The notes under the pieces were generated by a model, which was not told where the DNA came from, made no database searches, and saw only the letters and a list, made by a program, of their open reading frames with translations. A stretch of DNA of 64,000 bases from Streptomyces xiaopingdaonensis. GTDB taxonomy: Bacteria; Actinomycetota; Actinomycetes; Streptomycetales; Streptomycetaceae. The position numbers were made by a program, and so were the translations under genes. The stretch is from positions 1-64,000 of the forward strand of contig NZ_AJTQ01000103.1 in the NCBI RefSeq assembly GCF_000262345.1, in the 5' to 3' direction. Numbering within the stretch: position 1 is the first letter of the stretch; each line of letters starts with the position of its first letter. Positions 112-9,157 of the stretch are shown here, in pieces.

Positions 112-1269
112 TCACTCCCGGTCGCGCTCGGGCCCCCAGGCGACCCTGTCCCCGCGGGCCGCCTTGCGCCCCAGCCGGCCGGCCCGCGTCTGCACCGCGA
201 GGCTGTCGAGGATGATGCGGCTGCTCATCAGCGCCGTCTGCTCCGCCCAGTCGTACGGCGGCGAACACTCGACGATCTCCATACCGGCCAACCCCGGTTC
301 GGAGACGAGCCGGACGAGGTCGAGAGCTTCGCGCGGCAGCAGACCGCCGGGTTCGGGCCAGCCGGTGCCGGGCACGAACCCGGCGTCGATCACGTCGATG
401 TCGAACGAGAGGTAGACGGCCTCGGCATCCTTCCAGGCGGTCTCCAACGCGATCTCGGCGATCTTCTCGACACCGACCCGTGCGACGTCACTGACCGTCA
501 CGATCGTGGTTCCGCGCTCCCGTCCGACCTCGACCCCCGCTCGCGGCGCCTGCCAGCCGCCGATGCCGATCTGCACGAGGTTCGTCGCCGGCGCGTTCGC
601 GATGTTGTTGGCGTGGAACCAGGGGCAGGTGTTCATCCGCTCGTCGAGGTCGGACTCCTGGGTGTCGACGTGGCGGTCGAAGTGGATGATCCCGATGTTC
701 CCGCCGACGTGCGGTGCCATCCCGCGGATGGTCGGGTAGCCGATGGAATGGTCGCCGCCGATCACCACCGGCATCACGCCGCTGCTCACCACGTGCGCCA
801 TCGCCTGGCTGATCTGGTCGAAGGATTTCTCCAGGTTGCCGGGGACGGTGAACACGTCGCCGATGTCGACCATGTTGAGCTGCTCCCGCAGGTCGACGCC
901 GAGCTCGTAGCAGTACGTCCCGAAGAGGTTCGTCGACCTGCGGATGCCCTGGGGGCCGAAGCGCGTGCCGGGGCGGTAGGTGGCGCCGGCGTCGAGCGGC
1001 ACCCCGAAGATCGCCACCTCCGCGTCCCCCACGTCGTGGACGTCCTCGACGAACGGGCACTTCATGAAGGTGCCCCGCTCACCGGCGAAGTGGGGCAGCT
1101 CACCGCGTGCGAACGTCGGGATCGTGCGGTCGCCGATCGTCGGCGCCCCCTGGAGGCCGTGCGCGAGGCACCGCTCGATCTCCTGCCGGTGCCGGTGGAC
1201 GGGCAGATCCGCCTCGGCGCGCTGCGCCCAGGCGCCCTCCCCTGCGCCTCCGCCCTCGTATCCGGACAT
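112..1269 (-). CDS. Ureohydrolase (agmatinase/guanidine-hydrolase-like)
   Basis: Metal-dependent ureohydrolase of the arginase/agmatinase superfamily, 385 aa, cytosolic. The six metal ligands are visible: GGDHS (H174), DRHVD (D198, H200, D202) and SFDIDVID (D290, D292). The second motif reads DRHVD where arginases and agmatinases usually have DAHxD, and the following segment ([11 protein letters not shown]) is not the usual agmatinase one, so the substrate may not be agmatine. The first 70 residues precede the conserved domain. The start is supported by GGGAGG seven bases upstream of the ATG. The gene is divergent from a guanidinium exporter with a guanidine-III riboswitch, which makes guanidine hydrolysis an attractive inference. 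Agmatinase, guanidinobutyrase or guanidinopropionase activity remains possible. Confidence 0.88.
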
Positions 1270-1459
1270 GCTCGCCCTCCCGCCTCGCGACGGTGCAACC
1301 GCGGGTGCACAAGCCCCGATCCGGGCGCCGGAGCCGTCGTCCGATCGTCACTCACCCGAGCCCCGAACGCACCCCGAGCACGCCGCTCACCTGGGACGTC
1401 GGGATTTTGCCTTTCGGCGCCCGGTGTGCCAACTTCGGTGGGAGCCCGACGAGTGGCTA

Positions 1460-1502
1460 CCGGACGAGGGGTGCCGTACCCGGCCTGCGACAAGACGGCG
1501 CG
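1460..1502 (+). ncRNA. Guanidine-III (ykkC-III) riboswitch
   Basis: The sequence starts CCGGACGAGG and ends ACAAGACGGCGC, the conserved guanidine-III aptamer core. It folds as the expected H-type pseudoknot: CCGG 1460-1463 pairs with CCGG 1480-1483, and GTGCCGT 1471-1477 pairs with ACGGCGC 1495-1501, with one G-U wobble. The Shine-Dalgarno GGAGG (1506-1510) of the exporter gene begins four bases after the second stem, so guanidine binding most likely acts on translation initiation. Confidence 0.93.
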
Positions 1503-1515
1503 TCTGGAGGCACCC

Positions 1516-1830
1516 GTGTCGTGGCTGATTCTTGCGCTCTCAGGTCTGCTCGAAGCCGTCTGGGCGACCGCCCTCGGCAAATCCGAAGGCTTCAGCAGGC
1601 TCGGCCCTTCCCTGGTCTTCGGCTTCGGTCTGCTGGCGAGTATGGGCGGCCTCGCCTACGCCATGCGCGACCTCCCCGTCGGCACCGCCTACGCGGTGTG
1701 GGTGGGGATCGGCGCCGTGCTCACCGTCGTGTACGGGATGCTCACCGGCGCCGAGCCGGTGAGCGCCCTGAAGGTGGTCTTCCTCGCTCTGATCATCGGC
1801 GGCGTGGTCGGCCTCAAGGCCGCTCACTGA
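1516..1830 (+). CDS. gdx: Guanidinium exporter, SMR family (Gdx/SugE)
   Basis: Small multidrug resistance protein of 104 aa with four hydrophobic segments. It is of the Gdx/SugE type: the central transport glutamate is E13 in the first helix, followed by VWATALGKS. Family members exchange guanidinium for protons across the cytoplasmic membrane and function as dual-topology dimers. The GTG start lies five bases after GGAGG, directly downstream of a guanidine-III riboswitch, which fixes the substrate better than the protein sequence alone would. The gene is monocistronic, with a hairpin 26 bases after the stop. Confidence 0.93.
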
Positions 1831-3629: not shown

Positions 3630-4961
3630 TTGCGCTCCCATGGAAGCAAGCCGCGCCAGGGGCAACCAGAGAGTCCGGTGCAGGATCAGGACGGCGCGGC
3701 GCTCGCTCTCCTCCCTTTCCCCGCGGCGGCCGACCCCCTGCCCGGCGGGCTCGGCCCCTGCCTCGGCGACGACTGCCCCGCCGCGTGGCGGGACCCGGCC
3801 GGCGTCCCCGTCGCGCACCGCGACACCAACCTCAACGTCTTCGTCGGCGGGGACTTCGACGTCCGCGAGGCCGCCGCGGAGTCGGAGGGGCGCAACGTCG
3901 TCCTCGGCGACTTCGACCTGCGCAAGCGCGCGGGCGTCCCGCAGGTCTACAACATCGGTGCGCCAGGCGGCAGTTCACGTGTGCCGCCGTCCGACGACTC
4001 GGACCACCTGCTCGTCGGGGGCGACCTCGCGGTGGCGCAGGGGCAGCGGCTCCTCGTCCACGACGGAGGCGGCGCCGGCGCCACCAGGTACGGCGGCACC
4101 CTCTCCGGAACGGTCACGCCTCGGGCGGTGCGTACGCCGGACCCGGCCCGGCAGTACGCGCACCTTCGCGCCCGGCTCACCGCCGCGAGCCGCTGCTACG
4201 CGTACGAGGGCGACGAGCGCCGCGCCCCCACGGGCACCTGGCGCACCACGGGCCGCGAGACGGTCCTCACCGGCGACGGCAACGCGGACCTGCAGATCTT
4301 CTCCGTCGACGCCGATCTCGCCACCCCCACCGGCAACGGGACCTCCCTGCGCTTCGCCTCCGTACCGGAGGACGCGACCGTCCTCGTCAACCTCTACGGC
4401 GACGCCCGCCGCGTCCGGAGCCTCCTGACCTCCGGGGGCCCCGGCCTGCGCGAGCGCCTGCTGTGGAACTTCCCCGACGCGGCGACCGTCGACCTGCACG
4501 GCACGGACCCGTTCCAGGGGAGCATCCTCGTCGGCAACCCGCGAAGCCGGACGACTCTCGACCTGCCGGGCACCAACGGCCGCCTCTACACGGCCGGTTC
4601 CCTCACCCACACCTCTTCCGGCTCCCCGGCCGGCCGGACAATCGACGCCACCCCGTTCTCCGGCGACCTGCCGGCCTGCCCCGACGCCTCCGGCAGCCCG
4701 AGCCCCGGCCAGTCCTCGCCGACGTCCGGCCCCGGTGAGGACGGCAGGACCCAGTCGCCCTCGCCGGAGCCCGCGCCCTCCGCATCGGAGCGCGCGGCAC
4801 CGCTCGCCACGGGCGGCGAGACGCCCGCCGGCGGCACCGGCCCCGCCCTCTCCGACACCGGGGCCGGCGGGGGCGAGTGGCTCATGGGCGCCACGGCGGT
4901 GCTCCTCGCGGCGGGAGTGACCGTTGCCGTCCTCGCCCGCCGAGCCCGGCGGCGGGAATGA
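3630..4961 (+). CDS. Choice-of-anchor A family surface protein with LPxTG-like sorting signal
   Basis: Secreted, probably wall-anchored protein of about 443 aa. The body (from PLPGGLGPCLGDDCPA) is a choice-of-anchor A domain, with the characteristic N-L-N-V-F-V-G-G-D-F opening and a later LLWNFPDA segment. A Ser/Pro/Gly-rich linker (about residues 350-405) leads to LSDTG, a hydrophobic helix, and the basic tail ARRARRRE, the layout of a sortase substrate (class E sortases accept LAxTG). The TTG at 3630 has GGGGAGG seven bases upstream; a GTG at 3678 is the alternative. The N-terminus is odd: the hydrophobic core AALALLPFPAAA is short and preceded by acidic residues, whereas a basic n-region (RVRCRIRTARR) is found in the +1 frame. 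Confidence 0.75.
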   Translation: MRSHGSKPRQGQPESPVQDQDGAALALLPFPAAADPLPGGLGPCLGDDCPAAWRDPAGVPVAHRDTNLNVFVGGDFDVREAAAESEGRNVVLGDFDLRKRAGVPQVYNIGAPGGSSRVPPSDDSDHLLVGGDLAVAQGQRLLVHDGGGAGATRYGGTLSGTVTPRAVRTPDPARQYAHLRARLTAASRCYAYEGDERRAPTGTWRTTGRETVLTGDGNADLQIFSVDADLATPTGNGTSLRFASVPEDATVLVNLYGDARRVRSLLTSGGPGLRERLLWNFPDAATVDLHGTDPFQGSILVGNPRSRTTLDLPGTNGRLYTAGSLTHTSSGSPAGRTIDATPFSGDLPACPDASGSPSPGQSSPTSGPGEDGRTQSPSPEPAPSASERAAPLATGGETPAGGTGPALSDTGAGGGEWLMGATAVLLAAGVTVAVLARRARRRE

Positions 4962-6737: not shown

Positions 6738-7625
6738 TCAGGAGGGGAGGGCGCGGCGGCCTTTCTTGAGGAGGAGGGGCGCCATCAGGTCGCCCTCCTG
6801 TTCCAGACGGTCGGGGAGTTGGGTGGCGAGGAAGACGAGGTCGTCGACGGAGTCGGCGGCGGCGAGCTCGTCCCAGCCGACGGGCGTGGAGACGGTCGGG
6901 TGCTCCTTGGCGCGCAGCGTGTAGGGGGCGGCCGTCGTCTTCGCCGCGTTGTTCTGCGACCAGTCGACGAAGACCTTCTTCTTTCTGAGATTCTTCTCCA
7001 TACGGCTGACGGCGAGGTCGGGGAGTTCCCGCGCCGCCTCGGCGGCGAGTGCCTTGGCGTAGTCCGAGACCCGTTGCGAGGGCATCCGCTTGATCGAGGA
7101 GAGCAGATGGAGTCCCTTGGAGCCCGAGGTCTTGGGGTACGCGGCGATTCCGTCGGCCTCCAGCCGCTCCCGCAGCCAGTCGGCGACGGTGCGGCAGTCG
7201 AGGATGTCGGCTCCGGGGCCGGGGTCGAGGTCGAAGACGAGGCGGTCGGACTCGCCCTGGTGCGGCACCTGCCACTGCGGGGTGTGGAGTTCCAGGGCCG
7301 CGAGGTTGGCCGCCCAGACGAGGCTCGGGCGGTCGGCGAGGAGTACCTGTTCCATCGGCTTCTTGCTCGCCACCGTGATCTCGCGCACCGTCAGCCAGTC
7401 CGGGGCGCCCTGGGGGACGTGCTTGGTGAAGAACCGCTCGCCCTCGACGCCGTCGGGGTACCGGAGGAAGGAGAGCGGGCGCTCGTCGATGTGGGCCAGG
7501 ACGGTGCGGGCGACGGTGGCGTAGTAGTGGATCGCCTCGCCCTTGGTGAAGCCCGTCTCCGGGTAGAGCACCTTGTCCAGGTTGCTGAGCTTGAGTGTGC
7601 GGCCGTCGATCTCCGTTTGCGGCAT
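6738..7625 (-). CDS. NHEJ DNA polymerase (LigD polymerase domain)
   Basis: Stand-alone archaeo-eukaryotic primase-type polymerase of 295 aa, homologous to the polymerase domain of LigD, which fills and extends ends during bacterial non-homologous end joining. Catalytic aspartates are in FDLDPGPG (D132, D134), and the nucleotide-binding motif SGSKGLHLL is at 167-175. The N-terminus (LKLSNLDKVLYPETGFTKGE) is characteristic. No ligase or nuclease domain is fused. The ATG at 7625 gives the family start; the open frame continues upstream without homology. The gene is divergent from ku, its functional partner. Confidence 0.93.
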   Translation of the reverse strand: MPQTEIDGRTLKLSNLDKVLYPETGFTKGEAIHYYATVARTVLAHIDERPLSFLRYPDGVEGERFFTKHVPQGAPDWLTVREITVASKKPMEQVLLADRPSLVWAANLAALELHTPQWQVPHQGESDRLVFDLDPGPGADILDCRTVADWLRERLEADGIAAYPKTSGSKGLHLLSSIKRMPSQRVSDYAKALAAEAARELPDLAVSRMEKNLRKKKVFVDWSQNNAAKTTAAPYTLRAKEHPTVSTPVGWDELAAADSVDDLVFLATQLPDRLEQEGDLMAPLLLKKGRRALPS

Positions 7626-8206
7626 AGGGCCGAGAATCCCACAGAAGGGGCGCTCGGTGCGGAGTTGCGCGCCGGTGCGGCTGGGTTCGCGCTCGATGCG
7701 GGGAGGACGTCGTGGGCGAGGGCGACGGTGCGCAGCCGCGATGGTCGACATTCTTGCGTGCGGCCGCGTGGCGGCCGGCCGTGCCCGCGTTCCGGAGCTC
7801 AGCGAACCGCTCGCTGCGGGCGCGGAGTTGGGCGGCCGCCTCCCGGCCGCGCCATCGCCGTACGGCCGCACGGAACTCACCCGTCGCCATGGCGACCAGT
7901 GCCGCAGCGCCTTCCTGGTACCGGTGATCCGGGGAGGAGCGGCTGCGCCGGTCGTGGTCGATGTCGGCAGCGGGCTCGGCTCGCTCTCGCGCATCACCTC
8001 GCGGGGTACGTCGCCGTACGCGTACCGGGGGATCGCCTACCCGCCGGAGGGTGCGGAGATCACCGTCCGTAGTGCGGGCCGGGCGCGCGGCCGGTGGCTG
8101 CTTCGACGCGGCCCGTCCCCGGGTGGTCAGGCGCCCGGCGGCGGCCGAATATCGCCGGAGCCTGCGCCGCCCTAGCCTGGAGCGGACGCGGGGAAAGGAG
8201 CTCGGC
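7626..8206. other. Divergent intergenic region of the NHEJ pair
   Basis: 581 bases between the polymerase and ku starts, presumably holding both promoters. A minus-strand frame at about 7740-7960 encodes a protein-like stretch (ATGEFRAAVRRWRGREAAA) but has no proper end. It could be a decayed gene; I see no clear function. Confidence 0.4.
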
Positions 8207-9157
8207 ATGAGGGCCACCTGGAAGGGCGCGGTCTCGTTCGGCCTGGTCACGATCCCCGTGCAGCTCTTCGCTGCCACCCGGGAGCACGACGTTCCGCTCC
8301 ACCAGGTCCACCGCAGGGACGGATCGCGCATTCGGATGCGGCGCTTCTGCGAGGTGGAGGACAAGGAGGTCCCGTACTCCGAGATCGCCCGGGGATACCA
8401 GGCGCCGGACGGGACCACCGTCACGCTCTCCGAGGAGGACCTCGCCGAACTCCCCATCCCCAGCAAGAAGACGATCGAGGTGCTCGCCTTCGTCGACGCC
8501 TCCGAGATCGATCCGCTGATGTATTCGCGCGCGTACTACGTCGGGGTCACCGACCGTGCGGCGCACAAGCCGTACGTGCTGCTGCGGGAGGCGCTGACGG
8601 AGTCGGGCCAGATGGCGGTGACGAAGATCGCCCTGCGTTCCCGGGAGTCGCTCGCCGTGCTCCGCGTCCACGGGGAGACCCTCGTGCTCCAGACCTGCCT
8701 GTGGCCCGACGAGGTGCGGGACGCCGGCGAGGTGGCGCCGAAGGAGGACGTGACGGTGCGTCCGCAGGAGCTGAAGATGGCGCGGTCGCTGATGGAGACG
8801 CTCTCGGAGGGGTTCCAACTCTCGGCGCTGCAGGACGAGTACACGGCGGCGCTCCTGGCGGTCGTCGAGGCGCGGCTGGAGGGCGTCGAGCCGCCGCACG
8901 AGCGGGGGCCGCGGGAGCGGGGCGGCAACGTCATCGATCTGATGTCGGCGCTGGAGAACAGCGTCAAGGCGGCGAAGGGCGGTGGCTCCTCCTCCGGGGG
9001 TGCGGCGAAGAAGGCGGCCCGGAAGAAGGGCGCCGCGAAGAAGGCTGCGGCGAAGAAGACGGCGGAGAAGGCGGGCGGGAAGTCCGCGCAGAAGAAGGCG
9101 GCCGCGAAGAAGACCGCTGCGAAGAAGACCGCCTCGCGTCCGCGCAAGTCCGCCTAG
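8207..9157 (+). CDS. ku: Ku, DNA end-binding protein
   Basis: Bacterial Ku of 316 aa, which forms a homodimeric ring on double-strand DNA ends and recruits LigD-type enzymes. The N-terminus (ATWKGAVSFGLVTIPVQLF) and the FCEVEDKEVPYSEIARGY region are diagnostic. The core ends near residue 255. Residues 262-316 are a lysine/alanine-rich tail of repeated AKK units, an extended C-terminus found in many actinobacterial Ku proteins and thought to bind DNA non-specifically. The ATG at 8207 has AAAGGAG six bases upstream. It is divergent from the polymerase gene. Confidence 0.96.
   Translation: MRATWKGAVSFGLVTIPVQLFAATREHDVPLHQVHRRDGSRIRMRRFCEVEDKEVPYSEIARGYQAPDGTTVTLSEEDLAELPIPSKKTIEVLAFVDASEIDPLMYSRAYYVGVTDRAAHKPYVLLREALTESGQMAVTKIALRSRESLAVLRVHGETLVLQTCLWPDEVRDAGEVAPKEDVTVRPQELKMARSLMETLSEGFQLSALQDEYTAALLAVVEARLEGVEPPHERGPRERGGNVIDLMSALENSVKAAKGGGSSSGGAAKKAARKKGAAKKAAAKKTAEKAGGKSAQKKAAAKKTAAKKTASRPRKSA

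Follow-up and report, generated by a model that had tools for sequence, protein, structure and literature searches.

We propose that one Streptomyces has two separate answers to guanidine, a predicted nickel-type guanidine hydrolase and a riboswitch-controlled guanidine exporter, encoded next to each other on opposite strands. The DNA analysed (the window, 64,000 nucleotides) spans positions 1–64,000 of the forward strand of contig NZ_AJTQ01000103.1 from Streptomyces xiaopingdaonensis (NCBI RefSeq GCF_000262345.1; 384 contigs, 98.44% complete, genome 6.5 Mb). We regard this pair of functions as highly probable, a judgement that does not include joint control. In our model, the exporter mRNA would bind guanidine through the guanidine-III riboswitch in its leader, and Gdx would then be made, provided that the element switches as its family does; by analogy with its family, Gdx would export guanidinium against protons. 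The divergent hydrolase, probably transcribed from its own promoter between 1270 and 1438, would split guanidine into urea and ammonia, with catalysis and nickel dependence assigned from its family, and the genome's urease could process the urea further. A urease alpha gene is present in the genome, 2.2 kb from a cobW-type GTPase gene on the same contig, and urea is therefore probably usable; a HypA-type nickel chaperone was not found in this genome. For the alternative guanidine route through a guanidine/urea carboxylase, the genome gave partial matches only, none above cut-off.

Table 1. Features of the guanidine locus, in window coordinates.
Feature	Position	Strand	Basis and details
Guanidine hydrolase (guanidinase, GdmH-like ureohydrolase), predicted	112..1269	-	385 aa, ATG start, GGGAGG upstream, PF00491
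Promoter-like site toward hydrolase, TTGGCA-17-CAAAAT	1404..1432	-	consensus scan; putative, weak
Possible promoter toward exporter, TTGCCT-17-CAACTT	1407..1435	+	by eye; scan not passed
Guanidine-III riboswitch aptamer	1439..1504	+	RF01763 62.8 bits; P1 1460-1463/1480-1483, P2 1471-1477/1495-1501
Shine-Dalgarno GGAGG of exporter	1506..1510	+	sequence
Gdx-type SMR guanidinium exporter, predicted	1516..1830	+	104 aa, GTG start at 1516; PF00893; Gdx-Clo nearest; Gdx residues

A sequence-only reading of this DNA had placed the riboswitch, the exporter and the ureohydrolase back to back, and both the arrangement and its coordinates proved correct (Table 1). The hydrolase and the riboswitch–gdx unit diverge, with 169 bases from the aptamer to the hydrolase start. 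Base 1 of the window is also the start of the contig, and the hydrolase stop lies 111 bases inside it, so that genes following the hydrolase are not visible.

The covariance-model search with the guanidine-III family, which the sequence-only reading had proposed as a check, returned a full-length match well above the gathering score of 36 (E 1.4e-10), with both stems present and no notable difference from the Rfam family; it is the sole guanidine riboswitch above the gathering score in the 64 kb. The pseudoknot described in that reading is found as stated: CCGG pairs with CCGG in P1 and GTGCCGT with ACGGCGC in P2, so that 11 of 11 pairs form in the window copy, one of them U.G. We aligned 26 riboswitches, 21 from 20 Streptomyces genomes and five from hydrolase loci; the row L129, which lacks an SMR match, was included and L132–L141 were left out. 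Across this alignment 92.3% of cells pair, a fraction reached by none of 500 shuffles and falling to 26–47% when partners are slid by 1–3 columns, and two-sided changes occur at five of the 11 pseudoknot pairs. Against this, one P2 pair, C-G in the window, is non-standard in 15 of the 26 riboswitches. In the minimum-energy fold of 1439–1530, CCGGACG pairs with a stretch touching the Shine-Dalgarno sequence; 40 of 200 shuffles fold equally well (z -0.92), and an expression platform is not claimed. Guanidine-III riboswitches are common in the genus, being detected in 87 of 101 Streptomyces genomes (84 above cut-off).

The gene behind the riboswitch belongs to the SMR family (PF00893, 80.3 bits), and its assignment as a Gdx-type exporter by the sequence-only reading is confirmed. 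Its best solved chain is Gdx-Clo at 95.1 bits, compared with 34.2 bits for the best EmrE chain, which places it nearest to Gdx and not Qac, and it retains the network of E13, W16, S42 and W62 together with the switch residue Y59, all given as Gdx features in PMC9574504. The SugE equivalog is its best NCBIfam match, yet at 102.9 bits it stays below the cut-off of 126. We describe the gene as a predicted guanidinium/proton antiporter, a function that would follow from its family. Another contig of the same genome (C222; L002, 1151–1564) carries a further guanidine-III riboswitch, at 38.6 bits, followed by a second SMR gene, whose Gdx-type product shares 57 of 103 residues with Gdx-Clo. In S. albipurpureus, two tandem SMR genes follow one guanidine-III riboswitch (L156, 1582–2198), and this pair possibly forms a heterodimeric exporter.

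The divergent gene is very probably a guanidine hydrolase and not an agmatinase. Its product belongs to the ureohydrolase family (PF00491, 252.7 bits against a cut-off of 22), and its best solved chains are the guanidinases of N. inopinata (509.7 bits) and Synechocystis (496.3 bits), followed by a guanidinobutyrase at 157.2 bits; the PDB entries of both guanidinases carry the name 'agmatinase 2'. Identity is 61.3% to the former (220/359) and 60.1% to the latter (211/351), compared with 29.7–32.6% to five other solved ureohydrolases. An AlphaFold model built from an alignment of 19 sequences reached a mean pLDDT of 53.4, too low for a fold search.

The residues expected of a guanidinase are in place. 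The window enzyme has T97, H174, D198, R199, H200, D202, H219, D290, D292, W304 and E334, and 12 of 12 checked positions are the same as in both characterised guanidinases. The metal ligands among them (H174, D198, H200, D202, D290 and D292) are common to all ureohydrolases compared. A guanidinase rule of T, H and W at N. inopinata positions 105, 222 and 313 has been given along with the metal ligands (PMC11410670), and T97, H219 and W304 agree with it, compared with T in two, H in one and W in none of the five other references. All five of those have T at the W304 site and A at the R199 site; 24 Streptomyces paralogues likewise have A in every case, with T in 23 and C in one. Among 75 relatives, T, R and H are invariant and W is found in 74, the remaining one having a gap at W and E (presumably L081, cut by a contig end). 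Five of the 80 relatives (L033, L046, L053, L055 and L069) and five of the 29 Streptomyces paralogue loci (L095, L096, L099, L100 and L107) were left out of residue counts and tree because the extracted segment contained a stop. Since R and W are found in the guanidinases and A and T in the others, DRHVD is the guanidinase form: the motif noted in the sequence-only reading is indeed present (FDRHVD), although it is typical of the guanidinase family and not the variant it was taken for.

Phylogeny leads to the same placement. In a 59-row tree holding 27 of the 75 relatives and all 24 remaining paralogues, the window enzyme, the 27 relatives and both guanidinases form a 30-row branch with support 100/100, separate from agmatinase, guanidinobutyrase and guanidinopropionase; the clustering with agmatinases or guanidinobutyrases that would have spoken against a guanidinase does not occur. 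The window enzyme has S. oceani as its nearest neighbour in this tree (89% identity, support 100/97). The program warned of long branches outside the guanidinase group, and the deeper branching order there is therefore unsure.

Evidence from gene context comes from the relatives. We collected 80 loci from named genomes, the best 80 of 98 found, 77–89% identical to the window enzyme and weighted heavily toward Mycobacteriaceae. A guanidine-III model built from the 26 sequences, scanned over 1.24 Mb with E up to 0.1, found 59 places, and in 57 of these best 80 of 98 relatives the element lies on the hydrolase strand, with its start no more than 236 bases upstream of the matched segment. Of these 57 elements, five had served in building the model and 52 had not; three calls (L056, L064 and L070) are weak, at 22–25 bits. 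On 17 of the 80 loci the Rfam model was also used, with five above cut-off (L006, L029, L032, L066 and L067), whereas L062 and L076 were called by our model and not by the Rfam model (L076 at 33.1 bits, below the cut-off of 36). No guanidine-III element was found before the hydrolase in 23 of the best 80 of 98, including the nearest relative, S. oceani.

Further guanidine riboswitches and neighbours were seen in these loci. Guanidine-I riboswitches occur in 18 of 38 genomes scanned (11 above cut-off), and by contig coordinates 14 of 20 such places lie less than 2 kb from the hydrolase, taking both to be on the same contig except in L029 and L032, where a direct scan confirms it. In those two loci riboswitches of different classes adjoin back to back, the guanidine-I element belonging to a divergent SSF-type symporter gene and the guanidine-III element to the hydrolase (L029, 7648–7757, minus, and 7876–7944, plus; L032, 7637–7755, minus, and 7876–7942, plus), while L031 has a guanidine-II riboswitch after the hydrolase. 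With neighbours counted by tblastn and families named by Pfam, 35 of the best 80 of 98 loci have an SSF-type symporter gene no more than 1.5 kb from the hydrolase; amino-acid-permease genes occur in 23 fetched stretches, in seven of them this close, and urease alpha genes in 17, in four of them this close. In sixteen mycobacterial loci (L006–L013, L015, L018, L019, L022–L024, L027 and L028) a single fetched stretch contains the hydrolase and urease alpha along with PPE-family genes and a gene of amino-acid-permease type, and these loci may each form a gene cluster, PPE proteins included, that takes guanidine to ammonia. In S. oceani, a gene for an acetamidase/formamidase (PF03069, 599 bits; L003, 6436–7698, plus) lies ahead of the hydrolase on the same strand, an arrangement not found in the other 79 of the best 80 of 98. 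Seven of these 80 relatives (L066, L067, L079, L039, L047, L049 and L074; start codons roughly chosen) have a histidine-rich N-terminal tail with 6–11 His, for example HSHSHSHSHSDAFA, which the window enzyme lacks and which might hold nickel; we found no paper in the openly licensed literature joining guanidinase, histidine-rich and nickel.

Could the enzyme nevertheless be what automatic annotation would call it, an agmatinase, a guanidinobutyrase or a similar enzyme? It belongs to the same ureohydrolase family, and the NCBIfam agmatinase model TIGR01230 scores 171.6 bits, barely below its curated cut-off of 174.3. Its identity to such enzymes is nevertheless only about 32%, W304 and R199 replace their T and A, it sits with the guanidinases on a separate 100/100 branch, and 57 of the best 80 of 98 relatives carry guanidine riboswitches, so that we hold this reading to be very improbable. 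The guanidine hydrolase assignment rests on these same four lines, with roughly 60% identity to both guanidinases and the residue rule in its favour, and the sequence-only proposal of a candidate guanidine hydrolase rather than an agmatinase is thus upheld. The argument chiefly offered for it, from the exporter next door, carries little weight, since flanks of up to 8 kb around the hydrolase showed no SMR gene in any of the best 80 of 98 relatives. We also considered that the family is right but that this member of it has low activity or favours a substituted guanidine, for example because nickel loading is lacking or regulation was lost. The missing HypA, a hydrolase gene devoid of a riboswitch and a contig that ends before any chaperone neighbour could appear would fit; the identity of all checked residues to both guanidinases, the intact 385-aa frame with its good ribosome site, and the urease gene with its cobW-type GTPase neighbour speak against it, and we judge it quite unlikely. 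Because agmatine also yielded some urea with the N. inopinata guanidinase (PMC11410670), a side activity of the window enzyme on agmatine is possible.

How the hydrolase is controlled is a separate question. The sequence-only reading had reported no riboswitch on the ureohydrolase side, and our searches agree: none exceeds the gathering score on that side in the 64 kb, and no guanidine riboswitch family matches the hydrolase strand of 1–2100 up to E 5. A type-II hammerhead match found there with lax thresholds (21.8 bits, cut-off 37) was taken as chance. The exporter's riboswitch lies in the other transcript and therefore cannot serve as a leader for the hydrolase. The hydrolase-facing promoter-like site is the only one found in 1000–2100 (shuffled mean 0.0, sd 0.1) and one of two on both strands of the 64 kb. 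It is overlapped by the exporter-facing site, which is weaker and fails the consensus scan, but whose TTG and the A..TT of the -10 stretch are invariant in four gdx leaders. As a competing reading, the T-rich stretch was also scored as a terminator-like site on the plus strand, with its stem at 1390–1403. Streptomyces promoters often deviate from the consensus used for such sites.

The overlap of these promoter-like sites is no more than suggestive of a putative joint regulation of hydrolase and exporter. One may imagine two opposed promoters within 1404–1435, polymerase on one blocking the other, which would make an 'export or eat' switch for guanidine: the cell would choose between breakdown and export, and the riboswitch would add a second gate, dependent on guanidine, that acts on export alone. 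We consider such coupling unlikely. We lean slightly toward a true hydrolase whose siting beside gdx is an accident of insertion, the two genes being regulated and acting independently. That no relative among the best 80 of 98 has an SMR gene in its flanks favours an accident, as does the uneven distribution in the genus, where a search of 392 sampled Streptomyces genomes (E up to 1e-100) gave the hydrolase in two, S. xiaopingdaonensis and a genome that identical riboswitch positions identify as S. albipurpureus, against 87 of 101 for the riboswitch; from these flanks and genome counts, the pairing is not a conserved locus. In blastn comparisons, three gdx-only Streptomyces loci align with the exporter block, from 1417, 1441 and 1452 onward, and S. 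oceani aligns with the hydrolase block as far as 1239; the stretch in between has no match in either. On the other side stand the overlapping promoter-like sites and the coincidence of two genes for one rare compound lying 169 bases apart in a 6.5 Mb genome.

The simplest history would be that the hydrolase came to lie beside a pre-existing riboswitch–gdx unit. Among 61 relatives, only the S. xiaopingdaonensis genome has the hydrolase, and a third Streptomyces with the gene, S. oceani, comes from a separate genome collection. In the tree the S. albipurpureus copy clusters with other genera, apart from the window copy, so that the gene probably entered the genus at least twice or was lost many times. 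The side-by-side placement of exporter and hydrolase is unusual, with each part belonging to a known family. Elsewhere in the window we observed a divergent end-joining pair, a LigD primase-polymerase (6738–7997, minus, 282 bits) and Ku (8201–9157, plus, 164.7 bits), and a protein (3630–4961, plus) that combines a putative adhesive domain of ice-binding-like type (PF20597, 90 bits) with a Ser/Pro-rich region and, at its C-terminus, a hydrophobic stretch preceding basic residues.

What is the relevance of these assignments? They would reassign to guanidine hydrolysis an enzyme that falls just short of an agmatinase call by automatic models, in a genus where it is rare, on the combined strength of sequence, residues, tree and the riboswitches of relatives. 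The evidence extends to a broader actinobacterial group, including many mycobacteria, in which the hydrolase lies directly behind a guanidine-III riboswitch. Genes annotated as agmatinases have been described as regulated by guanidine riboswitches, with the guanidine-III paper among the sources cited, and Sll1077 has been shown to be a guanidinase (PMC8390497); the family and its riboswitch link are therefore already known. The portion of PMC7266159 consulted names no agmatinase-annotated gene for guanidine-III, and Gdx export and guanidinases have been reviewed together (PMC12186494). In the openly licensed literature we found no paper on a Streptomyces guanidinase or on a divergent exporter/hydrolase pairing, nor a characterised actinobacterial guanidinase, which makes the actinobacterial group a ready set for assay.

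Several known systems invite comparison. GdmH (Sll1077) of Synechocystis sp. PCC 6803 (PDB 7ESR and 7OI1) shares 60.1% identity over 351 positions and the 12 checked residues with the window enzyme, but its operon is under guanidine-I control and also encodes nickel-loading proteins and an ABC importer (PMC12186494), whereas the window hydrolase has no riboswitch and no such neighbour in view. A guanidine riboswitch on the gene, common in the GdmH clade though not strictly defining for it, is thus absent here. The N. inopinata guanidinase (PDB 9FEK) agrees over 359 positions at 61.3% identity and in the same 12 residues, and neither gene has a nickel chaperone nearby (PMC11410670); it is found behind a guanidine-I riboswitch with an APC permease, in contrast to the window gene, which diverges from a guanidine-III exporter gene. 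On the export side, Gdx-Clo (PDB 6WK5) and the window protein are identical at 50 of 103 residues and have E13, W16, S42, Y59 and W62 in common, while half of their residues are unlike and the window exporter remains under the SugE equivalog cut-off. Also close are the riboswitch-led mycobacterial and other actinobacterial guanidinase loci (L005–L082), whose enzymes are 77–89% identical; they differ in surroundings, with guanidine-III on the hydrolase in 57, an SSF-type symporter in 35 and an SMR gene in none of the best 80 of 98, in place of the exporter that adjoins the hydrolase in S. xiaopingdaonensis.
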